DNA of 64,000 nt from Turritopsis dohrnii (Eukaryota; Cnidaria; Hydrozoa; Anthoathecata; Oceaniidae). Each line of letters starts with the position of its first letter. Positions within the stretch are counted from its first letter, which is position 1. Below are positions 14,331 through 59,100 of this stretch, piece by piece. The notes under the pieces were generated by a model. The model had not been told where the DNA came from. It did not search any database and saw only the letters and a list, made by a program, of their open reading frames with translations. A program made the translations under genes and the position numbers. The stretch is taken from NCBI GenBank assembly GCA_027922465.2, contig BQMF02000609.1, forward strand, positions 62,001 to 126,000, written 5' to 3'.

Positions 14331-15231
14331 TTTTTTATTGAACCGAATTATGATAATTCTACATCGAATCTTTAAGCTATTTCTCAAATGTTTAGCAGAT
14401 GTTTTTCTCAAATGTTTTTCCCATACACACGTGTACAGAAGAGAGGATGTTTTTGTTTTGCTTTTATAGATTCAATTTTAGTAAATGTCGAGTAACTAGT
14501 TTTAACCTTAATGAGTTGTTCTAAAATGTGGTCATAAGTTTTGAGTCACAGAATTTAATGTCGAAGTAATATTGTCGAAGTAATACTGCTGGTTTTTGAA
14601 AATCATATTAATCCAAAAGTAAGATGAAAACAACATTTTGTTGTTACAAATCCAAACTGATTTTGGTTACTTTTCCTTAATTCTGATTTTTTGTTTGGAA
14701 TATTTCAAAGTAATGTACGAATTGACAAACGTATCTTCTACCAAGTAATAAGAGAGATAGTATATTGCAAATTTGCAAAGAATTTCTCAGAATTTCTTTA
14801 ATGTTTTTTCTTTGTTTTAGGAGATCAGATCATGCAAAGCCGTTATAGCTTCCTATATGAAGAATGTGGAAAGAAAAAAACCATGAAATGAAAACATCAA
14901 AATTTACCTTGATTTGGAATTTATTGCAAGACAAATGGATTTTAACGTTACCAATAAATGATCGTTGGGTACAAATCATTCAAAGTATACTTGTTTGCAG
15001 GAGCCTGAGCATGTAATAATCAGTTTTCAGTTTTTATTTTTGCACTTAAAAGTTGTACCTTAGGAAGAGGTTATGTAATGTTTATTTTAACTTTCTATGT
15101 TAGAAAAAATGTCTTATTAAGACCAAATGTAAAAAGCTAAGCCTCTTACAAGAATGAGATATATATATATATAATGTCTATATGATAAGATGCATATAAG
15201 ATGTATGATATACGTTAATTTTATTTATTAA
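14331..15231. other. Interior of the 6-kb element, no gene
   Basis: AT-rich sequence without a supportable gene. A short TA dinucleotide run occurs near 15155-15175. Confidence 0.5.
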
Positions 15232-16094
15232 TCTATATATTAATAGCCGATTTTCTGTCTGTCTGTTTGTTTGTTTGTTTGTAAGTCACGCAAAATGGTA
15301 GATTGAGTTGTGAGCGAAATTATTTTTTTTTGTGTGCGCGACGTGAGTTCGAAGCAAATACATTGCAACCCCCAATCGAACGTGACTTTGTTTGGCTGAT
15401 GAACTAATAGGAATAACGTTTTGTTTTTATTATTATTGTTAGTTTTATATTCCACGTTGACTTGGCTTTGAAAACAGTACATCAACTAAATACAAAGAAA
15501 CTAACTGATTAAACATTTTGGACAAAAAGCAGCAGTGGCAGAACGTGGCAGCATATGTTCGGTTTGCCACTAACTCTTGCCTGACTGTCTGAGACGGGTG
15601 AACTTTTTTTTTGAGCAATCAAAATGTTTAAAAACCGATAGGTAAAATAAGAGTATCATATCAAAACAAAAAGTTTTTTTTTTTTTTTTTTTTGCTTTCT
15701 TTTTAATAAATTAATTTCTTCTTTTAATTGTTAAGCGTTCTGATCGAACGTTTTTTTATTTTATTTATTCATTTAGCACGTGCCTTTTTTCTCTCCTCCG
15801 TGTGAACTTTTCAAGAAGAGAAACCATTTCCCCCTTACGTTTGATAGCACCCATGTTAGAGCGCGTAACTTTTTTGAAACAAAAGTTAATAAAAAGTTGA
15901 AGTTTTCTCTCTATACGTTTTGAGTGTATTGTTACACTGATAAAAAATTGGTTTTACCAGAGGTTGTGACTTCGAAACTGCTTCTGGTTGAACACAAGTT
16001 GTACGAGCCGTTTATAAGGAAATTTGACGTTTATTGATACAGTGATACAGAGCAGGTGGACATGGGCGGCGAGCGACGCCGCCTTGGCGGCTAG
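15232..16094 (+). mobile_element. Non-autonomous Helitron, long type, 863 bp
   Basis: It begins TCTATATATTAATAGCCG, preceded by A, and ends GGCGGCTAG, followed by T, which is the A^T target and the 5'-TC...CTRR-3' pattern of Helitrons. A hairpin GGCGGCGAGCGACGCCGCC stands just before the terminal TTGGCGGCTAG. The CTGT/TTTG-rich tract near the start and the internal blocks are shared with 40998-41864, 41865-42714 and 58245-59100. There is no credible coding frame. It is nested inside the 6-kb element. Confidence 0.85.
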
Positions 16095-20879: not shown

Positions 20880-22840
20880 AGCGTTTCCATGACATCGTTG
20901 CCGAATTCGCAAATTTGGTCAAATTAGGACTTCCAGTTGACCAATTTTCATGAAAATTTGCACAGAGCACAATTGAAAGGTGCTGATTTCGAATTTGACA
21001 ATGATTTTGCCAGGTTTGACTAAAATTGGCCAATTTAGGCCAAATTTGGACCAAATTTCGAAAGTTCTTCAATCTTCATGAAATTTTGCACGGATCACAA
21101 TTGAAAGGTGCTGATTTCAAATTTGACAATGATATTGCCAGGTTTGACTAAAATTGGCCAATTTAGGCCAAATTTGGACCAAATTTCGAAAGTTCTTCAA
21201 TTTTCATAAAAATTTGCACGGATCACATTTGAAAGGTGCTGATTTCAAATTTGACAATGATATTGCCAGGTTTGACTAAAATTGGGCAATTTAGGCCAAA
21301 TTTGGACCAAATTTCGAAAGTTCTTAAATTTTCATGAAATTTTGCACGGATCACAATTGAAAGGTGCTGATTTCAAATTTGACAATGATATTGCCAGGTT
21401 TGACTAAAATTGGCCAATTTAGGCCATATTTGGACCAAATTTCGAAAGTTTTTCAATTTTCATGAAATTTTGCACGGATCACATTTGGAAGGTGCTGATT
21501 TCAAATTTGACAATGATTTTGTCATGTTTGACTAAAATTGGCCAATTTAGGCCAAATTTGGACCAAATTTCGGAAGTTCTTCAATTTTCGCAAAAATTTG
21601 CACGGATCATACTTGATAGGTGCTGATTTCGAATTTAACAATGATATTGCCAGGTTCGACTAAAATTGGCCAATTTAGGCCAAATTTGGACCAAATTTCG
21701 AAAGTTCTTCAATTTTCATGAAATTTTGCACGGATCACAATTGAAAGGTGCTGATTTCAAATTTGACAATGATATTGCCAGGTTTGACTAAAATTGGCCA
21801 ATTTAGGCCATATTTGGACCAAATTTCGAAAGTTTTTCAATTTTCATGAAATTTTGCACGGATCACATTTGGAAGGTGCTGATTTCAAATTTGACAATGA
21901 TTTTCTCATGTTTGACTAAAATTGGCCAATTTAGGCCAAATTTGGACCAAATTTCGGAAGTTCTTCAATTTTCGCAAAAAATTTGCACGGATCATACTTG
22001 ATAGGTGCTGATTTCGAATTTAACAATGATATTGCCAGGTTCGACTAAAATTGGCCAATTTAGGCCAAATTTGGACCAAATTTCGAAAGTTCTTCAATTT
22101 TCATGAAATTTTGCACGAATCACAATTGAAAGGTGCTGATTTCAAATTTGACAATGATATTGCCAGGTTTGACTAAAATTTGCCAATTTAGGCCATATTT
22201 GGACCAAATTTCGAAAGTTCTTGAATTTTCATGAAATTTTGCACGGATCACATTTGGAAGGTGCTGATTTCAAATTTGACAATGATTTTGTCATGTTTGA
22301 CTAAAATTGGCCAATTTAGGCCAAATTTGGATTAAATTTCGGAAGTTCTTCAATTTTCGCAAAAATTTGCACGGATCACATTTGATAGGTGCTGATTTCG
22401 AATTTAACAAAGATATTGCCAGGTTTGACTAAAATTGGGCAATTTAGGCCAAATTTGGACCAAATTTCGAAAGTTCTTCAATTTTCATGAAATTTTGCAC
22501 GGATCACAATTGAAAGGTGCTGATTTCAAATTTGACAATGATTTTGCCAGGTTTTACTAAAATTAAGCAATTTAGGTCAAATTTGGACCAATTTAAAAAG
22601 TTCTTCAAATTTCAAACAATTTTGCTCCGATCACATTTAAAAGGTGCTGATTACGAATTTGTGAGTCATTTTGTCAGATTTGTCGAGAAATGGGTAATTC
22701 GGGCCAAATTTGGATCAAACTACAATTATGCAATATTCATAAAAATTTCTACAATGCACAATTAGAAGTTGCTGATTTTGAATTTGCCAGTCATTTTATT
22801 AGATTTGAACAAAATTTGGTAATTCGGCAACGTTGTATTT
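20880..22840. repeat. 128-bp satellite array, ~15 copies
   Basis: A unit containing AATTTAGGCCAAATTTGGAC and TTTGCACGGATCA repeats with a period of 128 bp, measured between 21028, 21156 and 21284. Copies differ by scattered substitutions and become more diverged toward 22840. The variant ATCATACTTGATAGGTGC recurs at about 21606 and 21988, three units apart, so part of the array has a higher-order trimer structure. Frames through it are artefacts. Confidence 0.9.
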
Positions 22841-23974: not shown

Positions 23975-24405
23975 AGGGGCTGTTCATATGGAGGTGAGCT
24001 GGCCCGGTTAACCGGGCTGGCTCACTTGAATGAGATGAAATTCACCCCGAGAGATAGGAAAGTGCCGATGCTAGGACAGAAATTATGTCCCTCATAATCA
24101 TAAGCGAGAATCCCTGTCAATTATTCTCTCATAACATGGGAAATCATATGATTTCGGGAATTTCCCTACTATAGCTAATATTATCATCTAAGACCTTTGT
24201 TTTCATAACGCGATACGAGTTATGAAACGTGTTATTTTGATTACATAACAAATAACAACACGTAAGCAGTTTTAATTATTATCATATAACCACAAATTAC
24301 TCATAAATGTAAACAATTAAATATCTCATAAAAATGTAGTAAAAAGCAGTTTGTAGTAGTTTCATTTTTATAACATAAATGAGCTAACAATACATATAAC
24401 ACACA
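23975..24405 (+). repeat. Polinton left terminal inverted repeat
   Basis: About 431 bp matching the right end in inverse orientation at high identity, apart from one segment. Compared with the right repeat, the left one lacks about 250 bp next to the outermost 55 bp. Confidence 0.9.
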
Positions 24406-24406
24406 G

Positions 24407-24480
24407 ATCAGCGTAGTCTAGTGGATAAGAACGCTAACTTGTAACAACAAGGTCGTGTGTTCGAACCCCACGCAGTTCGT
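24407..24480 (+). tRNA. tRNA-like sequence (Thr-type, degenerate)
   Basis: A-box-like TAGTCTAGTGGATAAG and B-box-like GTGTTCGAACCCC occur at tRNA spacing, and CTTGTAA at the anticodon loop position would give UGU (Thr). The anticodon stem does not form properly, the T stem has one mismatch and the acceptor stem does not pair, so it is probably a pseudogene or a SINE head. It sits just inside the left inverted repeat. Confidence 0.4.
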
Positions 24481-24751: not shown

Positions 24752-25882
24752 TCAGCGAAATACATACCATATAATAAACATCGCTAAAACCAAAGCTATT
24801 TTCTCTTCTTCGTGAGATGGGAGTGAATCTGTTTGACTCACTCTTGTTTGAACTTTCTTTTGTGTTGGAGAGCTAGTCACTTTGTGTGAAATATGATGCT
24901 CTTGCATAACATTAATCATTTTATTTCTTCCGAGGCTCAAGTTGTCATTAGATATGAGAATTTTGTTATTATAACCAGACACTCCCGACTTGATGTTTAG
25001 ATTCATGTCACTAGGTAACATGTAAATACCTTGTCCAACAGAATAATCAACTTTGCTTGAAGCGTAATTTAAAGTATCTTGATAACGTTTAATGTCATCT
25101 TGAATATCAACTCTGCGGTTAACAATGGCTTCAAAGTTGTTCATAAAAACTCTTTGAGCTGTCAAAGAGCTTGAATTATTACCTAAAATAGAAGAACGAG
25201 CTGAGGCTTGCGAACTAAGAACAAGATAAGCATATGCTCTAACACTCTCTGAAATTTTTACAAGACCTGTTTTTGTAAAGCCTTTAGATTTTTCTATAAT
25301 CCATCGTGTCATGGAGTCGTCTGTGAAATAACTCAGACCTGGCGTTGGATAGTCTCTACGTCTTTTTTGATACGAGCTGTAAAAATATTGCCCTTTGTAT
25401 TTTTTAGGATCAGAATCGACACCATATTCACTACAGATTTTTAAAAACTCTTCTTTGTTATAAGGATTATCGTATTGGTTGAAACTATCTTCAAAAGGTA
25501 GAGGTGTCTGCAGACGCTTAATGATTCGTCTAATATGATAATAGACGTGAAAACGATATACTGCTCTAATCATAGGAGTAGAGCGACCTTCTTTCAGATG
25601 TTCAGAACTGACCCCACAAGCACTTGAAGCACACCAAGTGACAAAATTGAGTTGGGTTTGCCATAATTTAAATGGTTGTTCCTGCCAAATTTTCATGCGT
25701 TTTTCATTTTCATCCATTTCATAATTAGTAAAAATATTGGGAAAGCTCGCAGGAAAAGAACCATTTTCAGAGACAATAATTGTTTGTTTGTATAAATCTT
25801 TAGAATTCAATATCTGAAGGTATTGTCCTCCATTTGGTTTATAAAGCGCATTGGGAGCATATTTAAAAATATAATCCTCCAT
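24752..25882 (-). CDS. Polinton protein, 376 aa, C-terminal membrane segment
   Basis: Function unknown. The protein has a block QLNFVTWCASSACGVS (residues ~97-112) and an Arg/Tyr-rich middle with DYPTPGLSYFTDDSMTRW, features I associate with an uncharacterised Polinton protein that occurs beside the capsid genes. It ends in a hydrophobic stretch IALVLAMFIIWYVF that could anchor it in a membrane. It starts back-to-back with the next plus-strand gene, only 38 bp away, so the two probably share a promoter region. A structural role (minor virion component) is possible but only inferred from position. Confidence 0.75.
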   Translation of the reverse strand: MEDYIFKYAPNALYKPNGGQYLQILNSKDLYKQTIIVSENGSFPASFPNIFTNYEMDENEKRMKIWQEQPFKLWQTQLNFVTWCASSACGVSSEHLKEGRSTPMIRAVYRFHVYYHIRRIIKRLQTPLPFEDSFNQYDNPYNKEEFLKICSEYGVDSDPKKYKGQYFYSSYQKRRRDYPTPGLSYFTDDSMTRWIIEKSKGFTKTGLVKISESVRAYAYLVLSSQASARSSILGNNSSSLTAQRVFMNNFEAIVNRRVDIQDDIKRYQDTLNYASSKVDYSVGQGIYMLPSDMNLNIKSGVSGYNNKILISNDNLSLGRNKMINVMQEHHISHKVTSSPTQKKVQTRVSQTDSLPSHEEEKIALVLAMFIIWYVFR

Positions 25883-25920: not shown

Positions 25921-26472
25921 ATGTATATCACAGTAAATATCGCAAAAGGAGAAAAGACAATCTATTTTTCTTACCCCATTCAAAACTTGGATGGCTCAAA
26001 AGAAATTGCATTGGTTGATATATTTGCAGACAATGTTACGTATGAAATAACCAAAGAGTTGAAACTGACTCATGGGAAAGCTGAAAAGTTGGTACCTCAA
26101 GGAACATTCACGAGCAGGGAATTCAATGCCTTTTTAGCAGGTGCCTTTTTAGCAGGTGATGTAAAACTTACCTCATTAGACAAAGACCCTCGAATAATCA
26201 AAACAAATAAGCTCGCTAAAATAATCAAAATTAATTTGCATCTATCTGAACTCGACAACACTCAAAATCTTGAGAATGGAAAGCTGAGTGATATTTTACT
26301 AACCTATCACATGGCTGAATATAGTGACTTCACACATGTTGAGCCTAAAAACCCTCAGTACAAAAAATTAAAAAATGGTGTATTTCAGTCTCTCACGTTG
26401 AAACTCACAGATCAACATTGCAATATGCTAAAAGAAGACCTAGGAAGAACCGTTGTTTTGCACATCCGCTAA
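25921..26472 (+). CDS. Candidate minor capsid (penton) protein, 183 aa
   Basis: It lies directly before the major capsid gene, where Polintons usually keep the penton (single jelly-roll) gene. The sequence is strand-rich, opening with YITVNIAKGEKTIYFSYPI, and has no membrane segment. Residues near 78-87 show a duplicated FLAGAFLAGD caused by a 15-nt tandem repeat. Membership of the penton family is an inference from order and predicted composition; a structure prediction would settle it. Confidence 0.55.
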   Translation: MYITVNIAKGEKTIYFSYPIQNLDGSKEIALVDIFADNVTYEITKELKLTHGKAEKLVPQGTFTSREFNAFLAGAFLAGDVKLTSLDKDPRIIKTNKLAKIIKINLHLSELDNTQNLENGKLSDILLTYHMAEYSDFTHVEPKNPQYKKLKNGVFQSLTLKLTDQHCNMLKEDLGRTVVLHIR

Positions 26473-26515: not shown

Positions 26516-27832
26516 ATGGAGTATGGAAAGAGGTTAAATCCAGAACGTTCACTTAGAACTGCCCGCGGTGTAAAAGGCTCTCGTCAAAAAGTAATTGTCA
26601 CACACAATCCGAGTGAGATCGATCAAAATCAGCTATTATTGGTTAGGTTTCCAAATTTAGGAAGCGATGATGTTATTATCCCAGGAACAACGAATCTAAG
26701 TTTTGATATTGAACTCGAGTCGAAAGCTGACTCAAAAAGAACATTGGTCAGTAACATTGGGAGAGCTATTGTTAAAAAGTTGGCTGTCAAGTTCGAAGGT
26801 AACGAGATATTGAGTATCGATGACTTTGATCTTTTTGGATGTTACAAAGATTTATGGTTAACCAAGTTTGAAAAGAGAAACGCGATAAGACAGGGTATCA
26901 TCATCGATGATGGATGTACAGAGAATTGTATGAAATTGAGGATTGGTGCTTCAGATAAAGACACCTCTGATGCAGAAGACAAAGCCATTGCTGACACCTA
27001 TAAAAACAAGTTTGTCATTCCACTCGACTTTGAGATGCTAGATAGTACTATTCCATATTATCAAGCGGGTTTAGGGAATAGGTTATGCTACGAGATCACA
27101 TTTAACGACTATAACCGAGTTATCTATTCTGACCCTCCAGATACTGCCGCAGGTCAAAAACGTAACCCAGATGGTAAATACAAAATATCTAACATCTCAC
27201 TTGAATATGAGCTTGTGACACAACCCACGTTGGCTAGACAAATCGCTTCTGAATATCAAAACATGGCTTTGCTCTATGATAGGATTTTGCGACACAGACA
27301 AATTAGAGTAAACAAGTCAGACACAACGTGGAATTGGTCATTCAACACACCTGCCAAATCTTTGAAGGGTATTTTAGTTCTATTTGAAGAAGAAAAATCC
27401 TACAAACGAGAAACCTGTAAATTCTACAATCCAAAGATCAAAAAGGTATCTGTCATCGTTGAGGGTAAGCCTAACCAACTTTTTGCTCAAGGGATGCAGC
27501 CGTTTGAACAATACAATGAGATTTGCAAGTATTTTGCTGAAGGAAAACCAAAAGATAATAGCGCCGGCGAAAACCGAAAGCGCTTGGGATTACATGATGT
27601 AAAAGTCTCTGATTACTTGACAAACAAGTATGCTCTATGGTTAGATTTCAGAACAATTGATGAGAATGCCTTGCATGGGACCGGTCGAAGGATTGAAAAT
27701 GCGAGTGAAGGCATCACTTTACAGATTGAAAAGACCGCTGAAACTGCAGGAAACTTAAACGCATATATATATCTAATCATGGATGCTCAATTAAATATTC
27801 AAAACGGAGAATTTATGTCTGCGTTATATTAA
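26516..27832 (+). CDS. MCP: Polinton major capsid protein (double jelly-roll), 438 aa
   Basis: This is the main shell protein of Polinton-type virions. Evidence is its length, the N-terminal GSRQKVIVTHNPSEIDQNQL, the repeated strand-rich pattern and the C-terminal block LWLDFRTIDENALHGTGR at about residues 374-391, which recurs in invertebrate Polinton capsid proteins. Its stop is followed after one base by the ATPase start, so both are probably co-transcribed. The frame is intact over the whole length, unlike the polymerase. Confidence 0.88.
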   Translation: MEYGKRLNPERSLRTARGVKGSRQKVIVTHNPSEIDQNQLLLVRFPNLGSDDVIIPGTTNLSFDIELESKADSKRTLVSNIGRAIVKKLAVKFEGNEILSIDDFDLFGCYKDLWLTKFEKRNAIRQGIIIDDGCTENCMKLRIGASDKDTSDAEDKAIADTYKNKFVIPLDFEMLDSTIPYYQAGLGNRLCYEITFNDYNRVIYSDPPDTAAGQKRNPDGKYKISNISLEYELVTQPTLARQIASEYQNMALLYDRILRHRQIRVNKSDTTWNWSFNTPAKSLKGILVLFEEEKSYKRETCKFYNPKIKKVSVIVEGKPNQLFAQGMQPFEQYNEICKYFAEGKPKDNSAGENRKRLGLHDVKVSDYLTNKYALWLDFRTIDENALHGTGRRIENASEGITLQIEKTAETAGNLNAYIYLIMDAQLNIQNGEFMSALY

Positions 27833-27833
27833 A

Positions 27834-28439
27834 ATGGACACACTTTACATGAAAGAACCTCACACGGCATTATTCGTCGGACCAACATCGTGCGGCAAAA
27901 CGGATCGTGTTGTAAAATTATTAGAAAATCAATACTATGATCACTTTGATTTCATCGTGATTATATGTCCCACCTTGAGGTGGAATCTGACTTACAGAGA
28001 CCGGAAGTGGTTCTGGAATGACAGCTATGTGATTTTAATTGAGCCGGAAGGTCGCTTGTATGAATGTATTAAAAAAATGGACTTTTTCTGTGCTGGATAT
28101 AAAACCTTATTTCTGATTGATGATATAATAGCTGATGAAAAATTGGACAAAAAGAGACAGCCTTTGCTCGAGTTGGCAATTAGTGGTAGACATCGAAATC
28201 ATTCGCTATGGTTACTTACACAATCATACACGGCTATACCTAAAAATTTACGACGGCAAGCTAAAATGTTATATGTGTGGTATCCAAAAGATAGAAACGA
28301 TCTAGCCACCATTCATGAAGAGAACGACGTCATTGAATCGCAAGAAAAATTGAAAGATGTCAAGGAAAAACTGAAAGGAGGGAAACACGCGTGCCTAGTC
28401 ATGAGAATGGAACACCCAAGGACGCACGTGATTTGTTAA
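27834..28439 (+). CDS. ATP: Genome-packaging ATPase (A32/FtsK-HerA type), 201 aa
   Basis: The enzyme powers DNA packaging into capsids. Walker A is GPTSCGKT at residues 16-23, Walker B is TLFLIDDI at 91-98, and WLLTQSY near 126-132 carries the sensor glutamine. The length suits the small ATPases of Polintons and adintoviruses. The start codon follows the capsid gene stop by a single base. The gene ends just before a strong hairpin (28453-28477). All catalytic residues are present. Confidence 0.92.
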   Translation: MDTLYMKEPHTALFVGPTSCGKTDRVVKLLENQYYDHFDFIVIICPTLRWNLTYRDRKWFWNDSYVILIEPEGRLYECIKKMDFFCAGYKTLFLIDDIIADEKLDKKRQPLLELAISGRHRNHSLWLLTQSYTAIPKNLRRQAKMLYVWYPKDRNDLATIHEENDVIESQEKLKDVKEKLKGGKHACLVMRMEHPRTHVIC

Positions 28440-28477: not shown

Positions 28478-28479
28478 AA

Positions 28480-28842
28480 CTGTAAAACTCCTATAAGACT
28501 CCTATAAGACTACTATAAGACTCCTATAAGACTACTGTAAGACTACTATAAGACTACTATAAGACTACTGTAAGACTACTGTAAGACTACTATAAGACTC
28601 CTATAAGACTACTGTAAGACTACTGTAAGACTACTATAAGACTACTATAAGACTCCTATAAGACTACTGTAAGACTACTGTAAGACTACTGTAAGACTAC
28701 TGTAAGACTACTGTAAGACTCCTATAAGACTACTGTAAGACTACTATAAGACTCCTATAAGACTCCTATAAGACTACTGTAAGACTACTATAAGGCTTCT
28801 ATAAGACTACTGTAAGACTGTTATAAGACTACTATAAGAGAA
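28480..28842. repeat. 11-bp minisatellite, ~32 copies
   Basis: Copies alternate between TATAAGACTCC-like and TGTAAGACTAC-like versions. The array fills the junction between the ATPase and the minus-strand gene, and it encodes the last residues of the latter. Confidence 0.92.
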
Positions 28843-29055
28843 TAATTTACGTCTCAATACAGGTTCTAGAATTTTACCAATACGTTTAATCCTCGATTCA
28901 AAGCGTACTCTGTCAACAGCAGCCTCTATCCAGTTACCTCTACGAGATTCACAAGCAGAGATATAATGGACCATTACTATACCATTAAAAGTAACCCTTT
29001 TTGTATCTTGATGGGAAAATATAATATCATCATCTGAGGATTCATCATCGGACAT
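28807..29055 (-). CDS. PPP1R15/GADD34-like PP1 adaptor, 82 aa
   Basis: The sequence shows a PP1-docking RVxF motif, KRVTF at residues 19-23, then VMVHYI, and an Arg-rich helix region RRGNWIEAAVDRVRFESRI at 38-56 followed by LEPVL at 63-67. This order (RVxF, short spacer, R-G-W, D-R-x-R-F, R-I, L-x-P-x-L) is the core of the PPP1R15 family, whose members recruit protein phosphatase 1 to dephosphorylate eIF2alpha. Proteins of that type occur in animals and in some large DNA viruses. Here the gene sits on the minus strand inside a Polinton, behind an acidic N-terminus (SDDESSDDD). The last ~12 residues are encoded by the minisatellite. Function in reversing translational shut-off is inferred, not shown. 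Confidence 0.75.
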   Translation of the reverse strand: MSDDESSDDDIIFSHQDTKRVTFNGIVMVHYISACESRRGNWIEAAVDRVRFESRIKRIGKILEPVLRRKLFSYSSLITVLQ

Positions 29056-29275
29056 AATTGTTTAAGTAAACAATGTTTATTTATTTAACAATGTTAGAAT
29101 ATATCAACTTTATATTATTAAACATCATCATCCTCTTATCATTATTTTGTCTTAAAAAATACCTCTCTCTAATAAAAATGGCGGAAACAGCGATCGATAA
29201 TTTAATCAGCTACGATATTCCAGGTGAATTCCCACCACCACCTTAACTGGAAATAGCAAGCTATACTTAGGGAAA
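29056..29275. promoter_or_regulatory. Divergent spacer between minus- and plus-strand genes
   Basis: The 220-bp AT-rich stretch lies between two diverging genes, the PPP1R15-like gene and the 137-aa gene, and is likely their promoter region. An ATG at 29179 opens a short plus-strand peptide of about 22 codons (MAETAIDNL...), which could also be translated. Confidence 0.4.
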
Positions 29276-29689
29276 ATGTACACGGAAGAGCAAATTAACA
29301 AACTCAAAGATGAAGAGGTAGAAAAACTTTTTAGTATCTACGAGGCTAAACTATCAGATCAAACGGTAAAATACTTGAGGAAATTACTCATACGTATTTA
29401 TTCGATGGGGGCTTGTGCAACGTTAGGAATAAACAATCAAGAAGCGCTGAGCAATGACCTGGAAACTGACCCCTCCTTAAACTCTGCTCTTCAAAGATTT
29501 ATATGTGACTTATATTATAAATTCGGCCCATTATTAGCACCACTCAGTGTTGGACTTATTACCGGGTGGCATTATATCAATGAAAGAAATTTAAATAAAT
29601 CCGATGATAATATAAATACAGCAGATAATAAAAATGTCAGAAGAACAGACTCCCATTCAAGTGACAACGAAGAACCCAAAAAAGGTTGA
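29276..29689 (+). CDS. Polinton small protein, 137 aa
   Basis: Unknown function. The N-terminus YTEEQINKLKDEEVEKLF is a helical segment of a type common in Polintons. A hydrophobic run near residues 82-97 (FGPLLAPLSVGLITG) could be membrane-associated, followed by a charged tail. The end overlaps the start of the next gene by 56 nt. Confidence 0.7.
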   Translation: MYTEEQINKLKDEEVEKLFSIYEAKLSDQTVKYLRKLLIRIYSMGACATLGINNQEALSNDLETDPSLNSALQRFICDLYYKFGPLLAPLSVGLITGWHYINERNLNKSDDNINTADNKNVRRTDSHSSDNEEPKKG

Positions 29690-32652: not shown

Positions 32653-32744
32653 TAGGATGTGCAGTTATGTGCTCCTCAATTTGAAAAAGTGATAAATGAA
32701 ATGAAACTGTTATAAAGACATATGATCACAAGTATATATAGACA

Positions 32745-33083
32745 ATGGAATTTCCAACAGTTGCAACATTTGAACAAAACATGGAACAAATTATTCCGAT
32801 CATAAAGTGGAGAGAGCTACCTGAAAATGTGATTTATTATGTTAAATCTGTGGGTGTGTCTATCACACCTGCATCTGAATTTGGTTCTGGAAAAGCTATG
32901 TATGCAGAGGTCCAAGACAGAACAGGAAATTTATATAAGACATAGTTGCCTGCAAGACTTTGCGTTGAATTGAAGGTTTATCTCTGGAGTTACAAAAAAG
33001 CTTTTATCATACCGAAGGGGCTCAAACAATCTGAAAAGAATCCTGAAAGACAATTCTTTGATTATGACATTATGTGGTTCTAA
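32745..33083 (+). pseudogene. Polinton small protein broken by an in-frame stop
   Basis: The frame runs from MEFPTVATFEQNMEQI and hits TAG at 32943-32945 after 66 residues, then stays open to 33083 for 46 more codons, including GLKQSEKNPERQFFDYD. The two halves look like one conserved Polinton protein of 112 codons with a nonsense mutation. Function unknown. Confidence 0.65.
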
Positions 33084-33144: not shown

Positions 33145-34128
33145 TCACCAACCTTGCACATAATCAGGAGGTAGCTCTGTATCCTCAGGTATCAACATCA
33201 GCTCTTCATTCACAAAAGATCGTTCAGGTCCATCTTGAAGGTAATATAGTACGCGGTTACCAGGTTGATCTATTACCTCACTCAATCTATATGTCCTCTT
33301 TGACCATATCCTATCTGTTGCTCTTTTTCGATGGTCATCGTGCTCTTCACCCGGTTGCAATAGATATCTATACAAACCATCTTGAGGTAGCTCTACTTCA
33401 GGTGGATAGCTCTCTCGTTTAGCGAGAGGCACCTCTTTCAATTTGATGGCATCTTTCGGTTTCATACCGATCATCTGCGTCTCCGTATCATTTAATCTAC
33501 CCACAAGTTTATACAAATATTTGACCCATGTAGATGATACCTTTTCCGAATCATTCAGTTCTTGAGCATCTTGTATTTTGAATAAATTTTCAGCAAGTAT
33601 CTTGTTCAATGCCTCAACAAAAGCTGTATGGGTATGCTTATATTTAGTAGTTGCTCTTTTAATTTCAACATTATTCTTCTCCAACAATTTTGATACATCA
33701 GCTTTGAATTCTGAACCGTTATCACATTGAAATACTTTTGGATAGTTTAAGGGTCCAACCTTGTAGATGTCTTCAATCATAGCGGCAACCTCTTTCGCTC
33801 TCTTAGTATTCAAAGGTCGGGCCACCTTATAGCGTGAAGCAACATCGACACCAGACAAAATGTACTTGTATTTATTACCATATAGCATATCACTAGGCAT
33901 ATACAATATATCAAATTGATGAATCTCATTCGGTTTAGTTACCTCATAATGCGGACGTTCGATCCTTTTCGGTGCCGGTAGATGTACCTGCCACAAAGCT
34001 TGTTTTAATAACCACTTCTTAATTTCCTTCAGTTTGAAATCAAATCCTCTTAGATTGCGAACAGCCTTTTGTCCTTTCCATAAGTTTTGAGGTTGATAGT
34101 AAATCACTTGAAGTTTAGAGTTTGACAT
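33145..34128 (-). CDS. INT: Polinton integrase (retroviral type), 327 aa
   Basis: This enzyme inserts the element by cutting and joining at target DNA. The RNase H-fold core has the catalytic triad D73 (in QFDILYM), D136 (in FQCDNGSEF) and E172 (in AFVEALN), with exactly 35 residues between the last two. The C-terminal part (RIWSKRTYRLSEVIDQPGNR...LYYLQDG) resembles a chromodomain-like or SH3-like tail. The N-terminal zinc-binding segment is not clearly visible. It diverges from the SAP-protein gene; the frame is intact. Confidence 0.92.
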   Translation of the reverse strand: MSNSKLQVIYYQPQNLWKGQKAVRNLRGFDFKLKEIKKWLLKQALWQVHLPAPKRIERPHYEVTKPNEIHQFDILYMPSDMLYGNKYKYILSGVDVASRYKVARPLNTKRAKEVAAMIEDIYKVGPLNYPKVFQCDNGSEFKADVSKLLEKNNVEIKRATTKYKHTHTAFVEALNKILAENLFKIQDAQELNDSEKVSSTWVKYLYKLVGRLNDTETQMIGMKPKDAIKLKEVPLAKRESYPPEVELPQDGLYRYLLQPGEEHDDHRKRATDRIWSKRTYRLSEVIDQPGNRVLYYLQDGPERSFVNEELMLIPEDTELPPDYVQGW

Positions 34129-35207: not shown

Positions 35208-37313
35208 ATGAGGGAACTCAAAAACAAAAAATTAATAAAAATTCAAGCAACTGTGTGGATCAAATGGAGAAAGGAGGATTTATCCAATCCTGAAGCGACA
35301 ATCTATGTTGATAAGGCGTTCAATAGCAATATGGAAACAATTCATAGTAAAAGTGATATATCTGATGTTGTCAATAAGATGTTCAATAAGATAATCGAAC
35401 AGGTTGAAAACCCCGCGTTACCTCAATCCGGCTTTGTTATCGATAAGATTTTAAATATTGATGTGGACTTTCACAAGCTAAAATTAACGAGAGGCAGCTC
35501 TTACTTGCCGCTACCTAAGAATTTTAGCGGTAAGTATTCGATAATCAATCCTAAAAACGAAGATGATGAAGAATGCTTCAAATGGGCTGTTATCGCAGCT
35601 CTCAATCATGATAAGATCGATAATCATCCTGAACGAATCTTGGCTCTCAAAAAGTATGATAAATATAATTGGGAGGGTTTATCGTTTCCAATGGCGCTAA
35701 ATAAAATAGATTTGTTTGAGAGGAGGAACCCTGATATCGCTGTGCATGTTTTGACAAAAAACGAGAAAGAAGGTATCTATATGTGTCGTAAGTCGAAGCA
35801 TCTTGATCGCAAAGAAACGGTTGTTTTGTTTTTACTATGTGAAGAGGAAAAGAGACATTATATAGCTGTAAAGAACTTGAGCGGTGTCTTGAGCAAGGTC
35901 AACTCGAAGCATGAACATAAGGAGCATTATTGTTTGAATTGTCTCAATGGATTCTCAAGTGAGAAAACACGAGATGAACACTTTCAATATTGTAAAAATA
36001 ATGATGTCGCGAAGATCGAAATGCCAAAGGAGGGTAGCACCGTTAAATTTCATGATGGTCAGTACCAGCTCAAAGCTCCTTTCATAATGTATGCTGATTT
36101 CGAAGCTTTGTCAAAAGAGGTTTGTAAAGAACCGCGTAGTGGATCATCCACTGAAAAGGTTGGTATACATATCCCCACAGGCTTCTGTTGTTATAGCAAA
36201 TTTGCTCATGGTGAAGTTTCAGACCCTCTAACGCTTTATCGAGGTGAAGACTGTGTTTTACGTTTTGTAGATCATGCAGTAGGTGAAGTGAAAAGGCTAT
36301 ACAATATGTGTCCTAAACAGAGAATGCGAGACCTCACATATGAAGAGGAACAGGGATTTATCGATTCTGATAAATGTCACATATGTATGAAAGAATTTGA
36401 AAAAGATAATATTAAGGTTAGGGATCACTGTCATTTTACTGGTAAATTTCGTGGAGCTGCACATCAGTCTTGTAATCTCCGTTACAAAGTGCCTAAATAC
36501 ATCCCGATCGTCTTTCACAATCTAAGCGGATATGATGCTCATCTATTTATCAAAGAACTAGCCAAACAGTATGGAGATGAAGGGATTGCCGTCATCGCTG
36601 AAAACAAAGAAAAATATATCTCTTTTTCATTGGATGTTAAGGTTGGTGAATATACTGACAAAAATGGGGAGACTAGGGTTCAAAAGATACAGTTGAGATT
36701 CATCGATAGTGTGCGTTTCATGGCTAGTAGTCTGGATAACTTGGTAAACAATCTATCCGACGATCAGTGTAAAAACCTTCGAAAATTCTTCAAGGGTGAT
36801 GAGCAATTCAAACTATTGAGAAGAAAAGGAGTTTATCCTTATGAATACATTGATTCTTTTGATAAGTTTAACGAAACTAAGCTCCCACCGAAAGATGCTT
36901 TTTATAGCAAGTTTAACATGAAAGGTATCAGTGATGCTGATTATACGCATGCACAGAAGGTGTGGAAACATATGAAAAATAAAAATATGGGTGCGTATCA
37001 TGATCTCTACCTCAAGACAGACGTTCTATTGCTTGCTGATGTTTTTGAGACTTTTAGGGAAACATGCATAACGAACTATCAACTGGATCCTGCACATTTT
37101 TACACTGCTCCAGGACTAGCTTGGCAAGCCTGTTTGAAAAATACAGAGGTTGAGCTGGATCTGTTGTCAGATATGGATATGTTTCTCTTCGTAGAGCAAG
37201 GTATTAGAGGAGGTCTCTGTCAGGCTGTTCATAGACATGCTAAAGCTAATAACAAGTATATGGATGCTAAATATAAGAAGACTGAAGAAAGTAGCTATCT
37301 CCAAATATCTTGA
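35208..37313 (+). pseudogene. POLB: Protein-primed family B DNA polymerase, exonuclease half
   Basis: It replicates the element's DNA, primed by a protein. Visible are an N-terminal Zn-binding segment (CLNCLNGFSSEKTRDEHFQYC), Exo I MYADFEAL near residue 294, an endonuclease VII-like block CHICMKEF...RDHCHFTGKFRGAAH near 390, Exo II HNLSGYDAH near 436 and Exo III YHDLYLKTDVLLLADV near 597. Exonuclease residues are intact. In-frame codons also continue upstream of this start to about 35090. The frame ends at 37313, where one frameshift moves the polymerase core to the next frame. Confidence 0.88.
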
Positions 37314-38535
37314 TGCAAATAATCTATATGGATGGGCTATGATTCAGAAGCTACCGACAGGGAATTTCAAGTGGGTAGATGCTAATAAATTTACCGCCGA
37401 TTTCATTTCAAAGTTGGCTGAGAAAGACGGTAAATATGGTTATCTTCTTGAAGTTGATGTGAACTATCCTCAGGAGTTTCATGATTCACATAACGATCTT
37501 CCGTTTATGCCTGAGCGAAAGAAGATCAATGGTGTAGAAAAGCTAACTCCATGTCTTTCAGACATGAAGAACTATATTATTCATATCCGTGCACTTGATC
37601 AAGCGCTGAAGCATGGTCTTGTTCTTGAGAAGGTTCATAGAGTACTGAGATTTAGGCAAAGCGCATGGTTGAAGCCGTACATCGATTTCAACACCAATTT
37701 GCGTACCAAATCAAAAAATGACTTTGAAAAGGACTTTTTCAAGCTCATGAACAATTCAGTCTTTGGTAAAACTATGGAGAATCAACGTAAACATAAAGAC
37801 ATACGCTTGGCTACCAAGAAAGAACAATATGATGAATATAATATAATGCTGGTGATGAAACCTAATTTCAAGGGTAGTATCTGTTTCAGTGAACATTTGA
37901 TGGCTGCTGAAATGCAAAAGATCAAACTCGTGTTGAACAAGCCAATCTATCTGGGACCTACAGTTCTTGATTTGTCAAAGACGATTATGTACGAGTTTCA
38001 CTATGATTACATGAAACCAAAATATGGTGACAATCTAAAGCTCTGCTATATGGATACAGACAGCTTTGTCTACCACATCAAAACCGACGATTTTTACAAA
38101 GATATCGCTGATGATGTAGCTTTGAGATTTGACACTTCAGCGTACGATGAGAAAGATAACAGACCTTTACCCATAGGTTTGAATAAGAAAGTCATTGGTC
38201 TAATGAAAGATGAGTTGGGTGGTAAGATAATGACAGAGTTTGTTGCTCTAAGAGCGAAGACCTATGCATATAAACAGCTGGATGGAAAAGAAGACAAGAA
38301 GTGCAAGGGAGTCAAGAAGTGCGTAGTAAAGAAGACCATGGGGTTTGATGATTACAAGAGATGCTTGTTCGATGGTAAGAATGTTTACAGAGAACAGATG
38401 ACCTTTCAATCGATTAAGCATGATGTTCACACTATAAAAACAAACAAACTCGCTCTCAATGCGGATGATGACAAAAGAATTATTGCAAAAGATGGTATTG
38501 CTACATATGCCAGAGGACATTATAGATATGTATAA
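37237..38535 (+). pseudogene. POLB: Protein-primed family B DNA polymerase, polymerase half
   Basis: Motif A is KYLDANNLYG near residue 24, motif B is KLMNNSVFGK near 168, and motif C is YMDTDS near 271, so both catalytic aspartate sites are present. The true junction with the exonuclease half lies in the overlap near 37290-37310; the first ~20 residues of this frame are out-of-frame sequence. Length of both halves together is usual for Polinton polymerases. With two frameshifts the gene is probably inactive unless sequencing error explains them. Confidence 0.88.
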
Positions 38536-38640: not shown

Positions 38641-38708
38641 GATACCTATGGATATTGACTTTGAAGATCTTTTTGACTGCATCGATGATCTGTGTGTGTG
38701 TCTGTGTC

Positions 38709-39390
38709 TGTGTGTTATATGTATTGTTAGCTCATTTATGTTATAAAAATGAAACTACTACAAACTGCTTTTTACTACATTTTTATGAGATATTTAATTG
38801 TTTACATTTATGAGTAATTTGTGGTTATAATAATAATAAAAAACTGTTTACGTGTTGTTATTTGTTATGTAATCAAAATAACACGTTTCATAACTCGTAT
38901 TGCGTTATGAAAACAAAGGTCTTAGATGATAATATTAGCTATAGTAGGGAAATTCCCGAAATCATATGATTTCCCATGTTATGAGAGAATAATTGACAGG
39001 GATTCTCGCTTATGATTATGAGGGACATAATTTCTGTCCTAGCATCGGCACTTTCCTATCTTTCCCCGCGTTCATATGGCTTTTCTCATCCCACTTAACC
39101 GGGCTGGAGAATGTTGTTTACATCACGTAAACAATAATTCGAATTTCGACGCGTGCGCACTTGTCTAAAATCTATCCCACTAAGCCGGGCTGGTCTGTTC
39201 ATATGAACAAATTTCATCTCACTTAGGTGAGATCCCGGTCAAATGAAATGAGATCTCACTTAAGTGAGCCAGCCCGCTTTTCATATGAACACAATTTATT
39301 TTTATAAAGATTTCTTAATGACAGTGAGATCTCTGCTAAGTGAGCTAGCCCGGCTAACCGGGCCAGCTCACCTCCATATGAACAGCCCCT
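38709..39390 (-). repeat. Polinton right terminal inverted repeat
   Basis: About 682 bp matching the left repeat in inverse order. It is longer because it holds about 250 bp near the outer end with several diverged copies of the GTTCATATG / CCGGGCTGG terminal words, which suggests nested duplication of the terminus or a deletion on the left. Confidence 0.88.
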
Positions 39391-40997: not shown

Positions 40998-41864
40998 CTA
41001 GCCGCCAAGGCGGCGTCGCTCGCCGCCCATGTCCACCTGCTCTGTGTATCACTGTATCAATAAACGTCAAATTTCCTTATAAACGGCTCGTTCAACCAGA
41101 AGCAGATTCGAAGTCACAACCTCTGGTAAAACCAATCTTTTATCAGTGTAACAATACACTCAAAACGTATAGAGAGAAAACTTCAACTTTTTATTAACTT
41201 TTGTTTAAAAAAAGTTAGGCGCTCTAACATGGGTGCTATCCAACGTGGATTCTCTCGAGGAAAGTGGATTCTCTTCTTAAAAAGATCACACGGGAGGAGA
41301 GAAGAAAAGGCACGTGCTAAATGAATCAAGTGAATAAAAAAAACGTTCGATCTGATATGAAATAAAATAGATTAAAAGAAATCGATTAAAGACAATTATT
41401 ATGACAAAAGCAAAAAAAAAATATTTTGTTTTATGATATTTTTTTTTTACCTATAGGTTTTTAAACATTTTCATTACTCGAAAAAAAAGTTCACCCGTCT
41501 CAGACAGTCAGGCAAGGATACGTTAGGTACACTGGCAAACCGAGATGCTACCACGTTCTCCCACGGCTGCTTTTTGTCCAAAATGTTTTATCAGTTAGTT
41601 TCTTTGTATTTAGTTGATGTATTGTTTTCAAAGCCAAGTCAACGTGGAATATAAAACTAACACCATAGTAATAAAAACAAAACGTTATTCCTATTAGTTC
41701 ATCAGCCAAAAAAAGTCACGTTCGATTGGGGTTGCAATGTATTTGCTTCGAACTCACGTCGCACACAAAAAAAGAAATAATTTTGCTCACAACTCAATCT
41801 ACCATTTTGCGTGACAGACAAACAGACAGACAGACAGACAGAGAATCGGCTATTAATATATAGA
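40998..41864 (-). mobile_element. Non-autonomous Helitron unit 3, long type, 867 bp
   Basis: On the minus strand it starts TCTATATATTAATAGCCG and ends with the hairpin GGCGGCGAGCGACGCCGCC and GGCGGCTAG. It matches the long unit at 15232-16094 over its length. No coding frame is credible. Confidence 0.88.
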
Positions 41865-42714
41865 CTAGCCGCCAATCAGGCGTCGCTCGCCGCCCATGTC
41901 CACCTGCTCTGTATCACTGTATCAATAAACGTCAAATTTCCTTATAAACGGCTCGTACAACTTGTGTTCAACCAGAAGCAGATACGAAGTCACAACCTCT
42001 GGTAAAACCAATCTTTTATCAGTACACTCAAAACGTAGAGAGAGAAAACATCAACTTTTTATTAGCTTTTGTTTTAAAAAACTTACGCGCTCTAACATGG
42101 GTGCTATCAAACGTAAGGGGGAAATGATTTCTCTTCTTAAAAAGATCACACGGGAGGAGAGAAAAAAAGGCACGTGCTAAATGAATAAAGTGAATAAAAA
42201 AAAACGTTCGATCTGAAACGCATAACAATTAAAAAAAGAAATTAAGTTATTAAAAGAAAAGCAAAAAAAATATTTTGTTTCCTGTAACTCCTTTTTTACC
42301 TACCGGTTTTTAAACATTTTGATTGCTCAAAAAAAGTTCAGCCGTCTCAGACAGTCAGGCAAGAATTAGTGGCAAACCGAACATATGCTGCCACGTTCTG
42401 CCACTGCTGCTTTTTGTCCAAAATGTTTAATCAGTTAGTTTCTTTGTATTTAGTTGATGTACTGTTTTCAAAGCCAAGTCAACGTGGAATATAAAACTAA
42501 CAATAATGATAAAAACAAAACTTTATTCCTATTAGTTCATCAGCCAAAAAAAGTCACGTTCGATTGGGGTTGCAATGTATTTGCTTCGAACTCACGTCGC
42601 ACACAAAAAAAGAAATAATTTCGCTCACAACTTAATCTACCATTTTGCGTGACTTACAAACAAACGAACAAACAAACAAACAAACAGACGGAGAATCGGC
42701 TATTAATAAATGGA
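41865..42714 (-). mobile_element. Non-autonomous Helitron unit 4, long type, 850 bp
   Basis: Directly adjacent to unit 3 and strongly similar to it. The 5' end on the minus strand is slightly altered (TCCATTTATTAATAGCCG). Short open frames here repeat those of other copies and are not genes. Confidence 0.88.
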
Positions 42715-56651: not shown

Positions 56652-57675
56652 CTAAACAATGAATGTCAGGTAAATTATTGTTTTCAATATCAATCCGTGC
56701 AGCATTTAAAAAGCGAGCCCTGCGCACTCGTCTGTTTCGGACATATGCTTTTTGGTGTTGTTGAGGATTAGCTGCACGTCGAGCATCAGCTTGTTCGGGT
56801 TGCTCATTGCTTCTATCATATTGGTGCTGCTGAGCATCAGATGCACGTCGAGCAGCAGCTTGTTCGGGTTGCTCATTGTTTCTCGGAAGTTGGTGATGTT
56901 GAGCATCAGTTGCACGACGAGCAGCGGCTTGTTCGGGTTGCTCATGATCTCTTAGCGACTGTTGTCGGAGGGCTTGCGCTTCAAGTCGAGCAGCTACTTG
57001 ATCAGGTTGCTCATTATCTCTTAGCGACTGTTGTCGGAGGGCTTGTTCTTCAAGTCGAGCAGCTACTTGATAAGGTTGCTCATTATCTCTTAGCGCCTGT
57101 TGTCGTTGAGCTTGCGCTTCAAGTCGAGCAGCAACTCGCTCAGGTTGCTCGTTATCTCTTAGCGCCTGTTGTCGGAGGGCTTGTTCTTCAATTCGAACAG
57201 CTACTTGATCAGGTTACTCGTTATCTCTTAGCACCTGTTGTCGGAGGGCTTGTTCTTCAAGTCGAGCAGCTACTTGATCAGGCTGCTCCATATCTCTTAG
57301 CGCCTGTTGTCGGTGAGCTTGCGCTGCAAGTCGAGCAGCAACTTGCTCAGGTTGCTCATTGTTTCTTAGAAGTTGGTGCTGTTGAGCATCAGCTCCACGT
57401 CGAGCAGCAGCTTGTTCAGGTTGCTCATTAGCCCGTCGCTGTCTTTGATTTTGTGCATCCCTCTCCCTTCTCAACTGAGCACGAATTGCACTTTGATTTG
57501 CACGGTATCTCCTTTGTCGTTCAGCATTCCTAATTCGACGACGTTGTTGAGGGTCATCAGGGAGTTGTTGTTGCCTCTCCTGTTGATGTTGCCGTGCATC
57601 AACTATGTCTCTATCAAATTGTGATCGGGGCAAAACAAACCTTTGAGGGATTTCGTAGTCATGATCAGAATTCAT
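56652..57675 (-). pseudogene. Helitron-2 N-terminal region with ~23-residue repeats
   Basis: From the start at 57675 an Arg/Gln-rich leader is followed by about ten repeats of a 23-residue unit (EQPDQVAARLEEQALRQQ type) encoded between 56760 and 57430. A CAA-to-TAA change near 57213 makes a nonsense codon, after which the frame stays open. The zinc-finger-like segment NVLCEHCGAIKF follows near 56630. The repeats are probably helical and could multimerise; their role is unknown. Other frames here are shadows of the repeats. Confidence 0.8.
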
Positions 57676-58244
57676 AACTCAAAAGAACAATGTATATAAC
57701 AAAAACAGGAATGTTTTTTAATTTTTATCATCACAAAAATAAAAACACAGGACTTGTGTTTTTTGTCAGTTTACCTAGCTAAATAGACAACATATAAACA
57801 AAAAAGCAAACTTTCCTTTGCTGCCTTTAGGCAAACAAAATGATCGTTTTTCTCAACTTTATTTCTTTCTTTTCGCGAGAATAAGAATCAAGATGGTTGA
57901 AAGCGAACTTGATAAATTTCCTTTCGTTGCCATGACGGGGGTTACAAATACTTAAAAGTGTATTCGTTCAAGGTCAGTCTGAGGAAGTCATTGTAGAAAT
58001 ATGAATTCAAAATTAGCTAATAATTTCATATATGTATATTTGCAGTTAAAAGTGTTACATATTCTTGCAGCCATTGTCATTTCTTTGGTGGGAGCTACAC
58101 ATTTATACCCCCTAAATGTTTAAGTTCTCCGTGATCTCTCCGTTGCAGATCCCCGATTTCTTATGAAGTTCAATCTACCATTTTGCGTGACTTACAGACA
58201 AACAAACAAACAGACAGACGGAGAATCGGCTATTAATATATAGA
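57676..58244 (-). promoter_or_regulatory. Helitron-2 leader and 5' terminus
   Basis: From 58244 downward the minus strand begins TCTATATATTAATAGCCG, then CTGT and TTTG repeats and CACGCAAAATGGTAGATTGA, all shared with the non-autonomous units, and then diverges into a unique leader leading to the ORF at 57675. It should hold the element's promoter. No clear TATA box was singled out. Confidence 0.7.
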
Positions 58245-59100
58245 CTAGCCGCCAATAAGGCGTCGCTCACCGCCCATGTGCGCCTGCTCTGTATCACTGT
58301 ATCAATAAATGTCAAATTTCCTTATAAACGGCTTGTACAACTTGTGTTCAACCAGAAGCAGATTCGAAGTCACAACATCTGGTAAAACCAATCTTTTATC
58401 AGTGTAACAATACACTCAAAACGTAGAGAGAGAAAACTTCAACCTTTTATTAGCTTTTGTTTTAAAAAAGGTACTCGCTCTAACATGGGTGCTATCAAAC
58501 GTAAGGGGGAAATGGTTTCTTTTCTTAAAAAGATCACACGGGGGGAGAGAAAAAAAGGCACATGCTAAATGAATAAAGTGAATAAAAAAAACGTTCGATC
58601 TGAAGCGCATAACAATTAAAAAAAGGAATTAAATTATTAAAAGAAAAGCAAAAAAATATTTTGTTTCATGATACTCTTTTTTTACCTACGGTTTTTAAAC
58701 ATTTTGATTGCTCGAAAAAAGGTTTACCGTTACAGACAGTCAGGCAAGGATGCATTAGGATACACTGGCAAACATGCTGCCACGTCCTGCCACTGCTGTT
58801 TTTTGTCCAAACTGTTTAATCAGTTAGTTTCTTTGTATTTAGTTGATGTATTGTTTTCAAAGCCAACGTAGTCAACGTAGTCCTTCGAATATAAAACTAA
58901 CAATAATAATAAAAACAAAACGTTATTCCTATTCGTTCATCAGCCAAAAAAAATCACGTTCGATTGGGGTTGCAATGTATTTGCTTCGAACTCACGTCGC
59001 ACACAAAAAAAGAAATAATTTCACTCACAACTCAATCTACCATTTTGCCTGACTTACAAACAAACATACAAACAAACAGACAGACAGAGAATCGGCTATT
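58245..59100 (-). mobile_element. Non-autonomous Helitron, long type, next to Helitron-2
   Basis: On the minus strand its CTAG end at 58245 directly abuts the TC start of Helitron-2 at 58244. Internally it matches the long units. Its own 5' end is truncated: the plus strand reads CGGCTATT and then unrelated sequence at 59101, lacking the last 10 bases. Confidence 0.85.

Follow-up and report, generated by a model that had tools for sequence, protein, structure and literature searches.

The window, a stretch of 64,000 nucleotides of the hydrozoan Turritopsis dohrnii (contig BQMF02000609.1, positions 62,001 to 126,000), contains a 15.0-kb Polinton element bounded by terminal inverted repeats of approximately 358 bp, which are identical at 98% of their aligned positions. 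The features of the element, in window coordinates, are as follows.

24045..24049, no strand: direct repeat CCCCG (5 bp), candidate target-site duplication, abutting the left terminal repeat
24050..24407, plus strand: left terminal inverted repeat, identical to the right one at 353/360 aligned positions
24752..25882, minus strand: 376-aa frame without a Pfam match at E <= 1
25921..26472, plus strand: 183-aa frame, taken as the minor capsid (penton) protein by its place only
26516..27832, plus strand: 438-aa frame, putative major capsid protein, Capsid_N (PF16903) 13.3 bits, cut-off 24
27834..28439, plus strand: packaging ATPase, Pox_A32 (PF04665) 30.8 bits, cut-off 22.8
28479..28839, no strand: 11-bp tandem array of approximately 33 units, overlapping the 3' end of R15-1
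28807..29055, minus strand: R15-1, PPP1R15-like frame of 82 aa, PF10488 match at residues 13-59
28843..29090, no strand: presence/absence module, approximate extent by comparison with six elements without it
29091..29246, plus strand: 51-aa hydrophobic frame (MLEYIN...), shared by the six compared elements that lack the module
29276..29689, plus strand: 137-aa frame, flanking control gene
32745..32945, plus strand: 66-aa frame, a relative of which adjoins the second form of the gene on contig C773 (91% DNA identity over 32704-32947)
33145..34128, minus strand: integrase of retroviral type (rve, PF00665), 42.3 bits, cut-off 32.6
35208..38535, plus strand: putative protein-primed DNA polymerase, split in this copy into two overlapping frames, 35208-37313 and 37237-38535
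38707..39063, minus strand: right terminal inverted repeat
39064..39068, no strand: direct repeat CCCCG (5 bp), abutting the right terminal repeat

The criterion for Polintons/Mavericks is a 6-bp target-site duplication, whereas here a 5-bp CCCCG repeat is found on both sides. The putative capsid protein has 3500 relatives at E <= 0.001, with no telling name among the 120 listed, and a PDB profile search with it returned only weak ribosomal-protein matches. The 183-aa frame gave three weak PDB matches, the best at E 0.041, and no Pfam family at E <= 1. The frames at 35208-38535 matched no Pfam or NCBIfam polymerase family; an Endonuclease VII domain lies in the first of them, and by a YMDTDS motif read by eye we take both to encode a protein-primed family B polymerase.

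R15-1 is convergent with the ATPase gene and divergent from the small hydrophobic frame. These two are its real neighbors, which corrects the earlier note, where the frame had been placed between capsid-module and membrane-protein genes. According to the accessible part of a study of vertebrate Mavericks (PMC8097293), those elements likewise have diverse extra genes beside conserved core modules, and their accessory regions flank the core modules, whereas R15-1 adjoins the ATPase gene; a word search of the text of that study did not return "phosphatase."

The frame of R15-1 runs from ATG to stop exactly where the earlier note, made from the letters alone, had put it, with KRVTF at residues 19-23. 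It is followed in the claimed order by R38-R39-G40-N41-W42, D48-R49-V50-R51-F52, R55-I56, and L63-E64-P65-V66-L67. The Pfam profile PF10488 (PP1c_bdg), which the earlier note had suggested as a check, matches R15-1 above its cut-off (30.6 vs. 26.1 bits, E 3.5e-7), residues 13-59 falling on profile positions 164-210. A hidden Markov model (HMM) built from six outside PPP1R15 rows only scores R15-1 at 39.7 bits (E 3.5e-10). No other of the window's 1108 six-frame stretches reaches E <= 10 with this model, and 22160 shuffled control stretches score 9.5 bits at most. Among PDB chains compared by sequence, the African swine fever virus (ASFV) protein DP71L (9nb9, 28.4 bits) and human PPP1R15B (4v0x, 28.3 bits) match R15-1, and 20 of 46 positions (43%) are identical to the human PPP1R15B core in an ungapped alignment. 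Low-scoring UHRF1 matches also turn up in the Pfam and PDB-chain searches. Approximately the last ten residues of R15-1 are encoded by the 11-bp tandem array, so that its C-terminus lies outside the PPP1R15 family core; units of this array also supply the last codons in other R15-1 copies. As far as sequence allows, R15-1 is established as a homolog of PPP1R15 that resides in a Polinton family.

The RVxF motif of R15-1 (RVTF, residues 20-23) stands at the start of the core. From Trp42 on, human PPP1R15A numbering equals that of R15-1 plus 540 in the alignment, and W42, R51, F52, R55, and I56 thereby correspond to W582, R591, F592, R595, and I596, with R38 corresponding to R578. Mutations of R658, W662, F672, and I676 in PPP1R15B weaken the actin response, according to excerpts of Chen et al. 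(2015; PMC4394352); counterparts of all four are present in R15-1 at the same spacing (R38 and W42 for R658 and W662). For PPP1R15A, contacts with actin (F592, R595, and R612) and with eIF2alpha (R591 and R594) are given in the accessible sections of Yan et al. (2021; PMC8500838). Of the eIF2alpha contacts, R591 is kept as R51 in R15-1 and R594 is replaced by Ser54 (Lys in human PPP1R15B); for R612, the actin contact of the second helix, no clear equivalent is seen in R15-1, whose tail is array-coded. In the alignment with DP71L, the LEPVL tail of R15-1 falls on the LLSAVL region, and LSAVL is required for bridging PP1 and eIF2alpha according to part of a review (PMC10807198). In excerpts of PMC7615683, the C-terminal core binds PP1 and alone produces no rise in activity toward eIF2alpha, the substrate being recruited by regions upstream of the core.

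The cellular proteins GADD34/PPP1R15A and CReP/PPP1R15B have in common with R15-1 the PF10488 core, the RVxF motif, the Arg and Trp sites, and the helix residues Arg51, Phe52, Arg55, and Ile56. The L-x-P-x-L tail of R15-1 is as in PPP1R15A and its short linker as in PPP1R15B, whereas its 82 aa lack the long N-terminal part of the mammalian proteins, which exceed 600 aa (PMC4394352, in part). The short form of ASFV DP71L is likewise a stand-alone viral core of similar size (a 71-aa chain); it aligns over residues 16-70 with one single-residue gap and has AAVDR in the helix. R15-1 differs from DP71L in its carrier, an integrated transposon-like element of approximately 15 kb, and in grouping with the host gene, by a core tree that had no viral row. 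An invertebrate DNA virus with a PPP1R15 core, which we take to be a granulovirus, is similar to R15-1 by description, its carrier not being a Polinton. Herpesvirus ICP34.5 (gamma-34.5), likened here by description, is also a viral PPP1R15-like PP1-eIF2alpha adaptor, in which the core forms the C-terminal domain rather than standing alone (PMC10807198, in part).

Searches of the 436-Mb assembly of the same genome revealed at least 221 R15-1-type places when the protein and PF10488 listings were combined. The best 150 of 449 candidates found with the R15-1 protein all have E <= 2.6e-42, and 149 of them are free of stops; of the 413 candidates found with PF10488, the best 150 are all above the cut-off. 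With the capsid protein as query, the best 96 of 1108 candidates are 97-100% identical and contain no stop. A listed R15-1-type gene lies within 6 kb of 36 of these 96 capsid loci, at 0.9 to 2.4 kb, and one of the 36 neighbors, on C606, has a stop. Forty of the other 60 capsid loci were fetched: 29 carry the frame (including L074, in which only residues 19-81 match), 4 carry a broken version (L061 and L087-L089), and 7 are without it. Nine of the last 20 show a match at the expected distance. Overall, at least 74 of the 96 capsid loci have the module, 4 have it broken, 7 are without it, and 11 were left out of the count. In most of the examined capsid loci, the gene has the same position, next to the ATPase gene. 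The earlier note had named the lack of a PF10488 match, or absence of the frame from all other copies of the family, as arguments against a PPP1R15 gene; since the match is above the cut-off and other copies carry the frame, both arguments fail.

The R15-1 gene is a presence/absence module in this Polinton family. Six module-less elements (L051, L059, L060, L062, L063, and L068) were compared in detail, the seventh (L083) being left out; they have the same flanks and a tandem repeat of approximately 44 bp in the gap. This gap repeat differs from the 11-bp array of the window copy. On a tree of the ATPase genes (79 rows, 75 of them with a module state), the module state requires five changes. 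Three of the broken loci, L087, L088, and L089, have identical ATPases, and their PPP1R15-like frames are interrupted in nearly the same way; either the broken version was itself copied or these are haplotypes.

Among the 62 elements that have all three genes, R15-1 shows a synonymous diversity of 0.032, the ATPase 0.148, and the next gene 0.085; at four-fold sites the values are 0.026, 0.135, and 0.075, respectively. Twenty-two pairs of elements have an identical module, with ATPases up to 9% apart, and identical modules in elements with diverged ATPases imply that the module moved between elements after these had parted. Its spread within the Polinton family is that of an exchangeable accessory unit.

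Selection on the frame was assessed in 93 copies (63 distinct), composed of the best-scoring lists, the 40 fetched capsid loci without a listed neighbor, and 20 hand-picked short stretches; the set is not random, and the assembly may contain both haplotypes of some insertions. L034, a second reading of the C149 locus and equal to L046, was dropped from this set and is still included in the 59-copy sets. Twelve core codons had been set beforehand as the invariant columns of the alignment with PPP1R15 rows. Nine of them (V21, F23, V27, W42, D48, R51, F52, R55, and I56) never change in the 93 copies, R38 is kept in 92, and A46 is changed in three. Codon 40 is divided between Gly and Ser at nearly 1:1 (48 G, 44 S, and 1 D), with glycine in all three aligned PPP1R15 rows. 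The most variable codons of R15-1 are 26, 33, 40, 64, and 17. Stops within codons 4-70 occur in only 2 of the 93 copies, in both at codon 70.

Over the 93 copies, pN/pS is 0.33 for the 12 core codons and 1.22 for the other codons of 4-63. The value for the whole gene is close to 1 (0.945, and 0.92 in an earlier set of 47 copies), and neutral drift would give the same; in the same 62 elements R15-1 has 1.04, against 0.19 in the ATPase and 0.30 in the next gene. Comparing the core with the rest by the number of variable codons gave Fisher P values of 0.055 and 0.16 in the 59-copy sets, and permutation P values of 0.06 to 0.13 in the 93 copies with all 12 core codons. By amino-acid diversity, the 12 codons gave P values of 0.29 to 0.34 (0.31 for codons 19-56). 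Without codon 40, a choice made after the data were seen, P falls to 0.006-0.017 by diversity (0.017 for codons 19-56) and to 0.024-0.058 by variable codons. The contrast between core codons and the rest is suggestive of constraint.

Genome queries with R15-1, PF10488, and a core of human type gave only window-type places among the matches listed. P0133, a candidate from the protein search described below, led as query to a second form of the gene on C773 (E 0.59), and the C773 form led in turn to C11. The second form is located at G000:C773:16082-16276 (L110) and at 11 further places. Its 12 copies show 91-100% identity, 11 of them without a stop in the core, and it has a longer linker: AWDHAYRKSRKGDW. 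PF10488 scores it at 25.1 bits, just below the cut-off of 26.1. On C773, the core frame and an acidic N-terminal frame are in different phases, which may reflect an intron, an error, or a break. One window-type copy, on C105, was found by the second-form query and keeps the long linker.

C11 contains an open frame of 345 aa that ends in TKRVHF...SRKGDW...RRIENVGKVLEPVLKLMCDKGRD. Its 315 aa from the first Met, used as query, have a single full-length match in the genome, C11 itself (745 bits). The other 125 matches listed cover only parts of residues 194-308: the second form scores 57 to 40 bits, C105 45, and the window type up to 34. The C11 gene has no PF10488 match at E <= 1; the outside-row HMM scores it at 25.8 bits (E 7.9e-6), and with PPP1R15A (7nzm) its core gives a match at E 2.9e-4. 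We take C11 to be the host PPP1R15 gene, and the LEPVL tail of R15-1 is common to it.

The comparison with the host gene that the earlier note had recommended was carried out as a core tree of 10 rows and 69 columns. Alignment A5 excludes P0132 and P0134. R15-1, C105, the second form, and C11 make up one group (100/100) against five vertebrate-type rows and P0133, the latter on a long branch, and the second form stands next to the window type (85/86). Relative to C105, the window copy is missing 15 linker bases and has smaller gaps, which makes it probable that its PPP1R15B-like spacing arose secondarily. The simplest sequence of events leads from the host gene through the second form to the window form, the alternatives being two separate captures or an exchange between the two forms at C105. 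The earlier note had left it at "captured or evolved," and with a host-type gene, a second form, and the core tree, "captured" is now better supported than "evolved." The PPP1R15-like reading itself gains support from the PF10488 match together with the host-type gene and the second, Polinton-flanked form. Descent of R15-1 from PPP1R15 of the host lineage is well supported.

Both flanks of the second form are Polinton-type sequence and recur in the genome. One is found in at least 29 places without the second form, and in the cases compared by coordinates (C13, C540, C374, C610, and C571) it precedes listed capsid genes by approximately 1.8 to 2.2 kb. The other flank contains the relative of the 66-aa frame of the window and is found in at least 28 further places. 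On C819, the second form is located 2.9 kb upstream of the capsid gene of an element without a window-type gene. In the window, the left terminal repeat begins 2.5 kb upstream of the capsid gene, so the second form on C819 may belong to a neighboring element.

Outside this genome, neither the 82-aa protein nor the capsid protein had a confirmed relative among viral contigs. A strict DNA pattern for the R15-1 core had no match, and two stretches found with a looser pattern were rejected, since they translate as Arg/Pro-rich chance frames. In a wide protein search, the only candidate obtained with R15-1 alone did not score, while a three-row alignment yielded 15 candidates, of which 13 have E <= 10 and bear PF10488. 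Two of these 13 are named mammalian proteins. The others are ten that resemble exons of vertebrate PPP1R15 and the unplaced P0133, and not one of these eleven is recognizable as Polinton-borne. A full-text literature search, its coverage excluding most subscription papers, returned no described Polinton PPP1R15 gene, and none of its best-ranked matches joined Polinton/Maverick with eIF2. The six papers naming both Polinton and protein phosphatase use the latter term once each and are, by title, surveys or reviews on other subjects. A word search of a preprint on gene transfer among animal viruses (PMC11071296) returned neither "phosphatase" nor "GADD34."

Taken together, R15-1 is probably a functional minimal PPP1R15, captured from the host lineage, that brings PP1 to eIF2alpha. 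A PPP1R15 gene of the host lineage would have been taken up by a Polinton, cut down to the conserved core and a short acidic N-terminus, and passed through the family as an exchangeable accessory module. By analogy with known structures, the RVxF motif (20-23), Arg38, and Trp42 would grip host PP1; Phe52, Arg55, and Ile56 would bind G-actin; and the other face of the helix (Arg51) would be offered to eIF2alpha, from which PP1 would strip the Ser51 phosphate. Translation of the capsid and replication genes could then continue despite active host eIF2alpha kinases. The conserved residues strongly suggest action on eIF2alpha, and a counter-defense role against an eIF2alpha kinase may follow from it.

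Another target for a core acquired by descent comes first among the alternatives and is unlikely: bound through RVxF, Arg, and Trp, PP1 would be redirected to a viral or immune-signaling protein, or PP1 or actin would be tied up, with no action on eIF2alpha. It is consistent with the retention of RVxF, Arg38, and Trp42 beside the change of R594 to Ser54 and the lack of a clear counterpart of R612, but R51, F52, R55, and I56, which are contacts of eIF2alpha and actin rather than of PP1, are invariant in the 93 copies, and the LEPVL tail is common to the host gene. Rather improbable, too, is a functionless captured fragment that hitch-hikes with an active Polinton family and remains open because the copies are young. 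The overall pN/pS near 1, the absence of the module from 7 and its breakage in 4 of the 96 capsid loci, and the 98% identity of the terminal repeats, which makes the window copy young, all agree with a passenger. Against it stand the nine invariant core codons and the core pN/pS of 0.33, the spread of the module by exchange, the retention of the gene through the change from the long-linker to the present form, and the stop-free core of 11 of the 12 second-form copies. Chance or convergence, by which R15-1 would be a small protein of other ancestry that carries an RVxF motif and an amphipathic helix, is very improbable, since the shortness of the core and the low-scoring UHRF1 matches are outweighed by a profile match far above 22160 shuffled controls (39.7 vs. 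9.5 bits), the graded similarity of the C105, C773, and C11 forms, and their 100/100 grouping.

A broader reading, about as likely as not, is that the Polintons of T. dohrnii carry an exchangeable "translation-restart" module: a host-captured PPP1R15 in two forms, with a fixed PP1/actin/eIF2alpha core and fast-changing surroundings, traded by recombination. If it is true, phosphorylation of eIF2alpha would be a real antiviral barrier to Polintons, and therefore Polintons would make proteins in bulk, as viruses do. Mavericks encode capsid-type proteins, and viral particles had not been observed according to excerpts of PMC8097293. R15-1 suggests that Polintons must fight translation shut-off much like true viruses: the best-known use of such a gene is to sustain translation during stress, and its presence speaks for an antiviral translation block that Polintons encounter, which is directly testable.

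The carriers of viral PPP1R15 proteins described earlier, a herpesvirus, ASFV, and an insect virus (PMC10807198 and PMC4394352, both in part), are larger DNA viruses; here the gene lies inside a Polinton family with hundreds of copies. Three things make R15-1 more than one further viral PPP1R15: its carrier, the series of forms that can be seen to lead from the host gene to a mini-gene, and the exchange of the module between elements. As the host gene and the intermediates occur together in one genome, the capture could be traced step by step.

The window also contains repeats outside the element. An inverted-repeat family occupies 15229-15717, 41090-42691, and 58170-59084, on both sides of the Polinton, and two tandem arrays are located at 20942-22719 (128-bp units, approximately 14 copies) and 56752-57430 (69-bp, or 207-bp, units).
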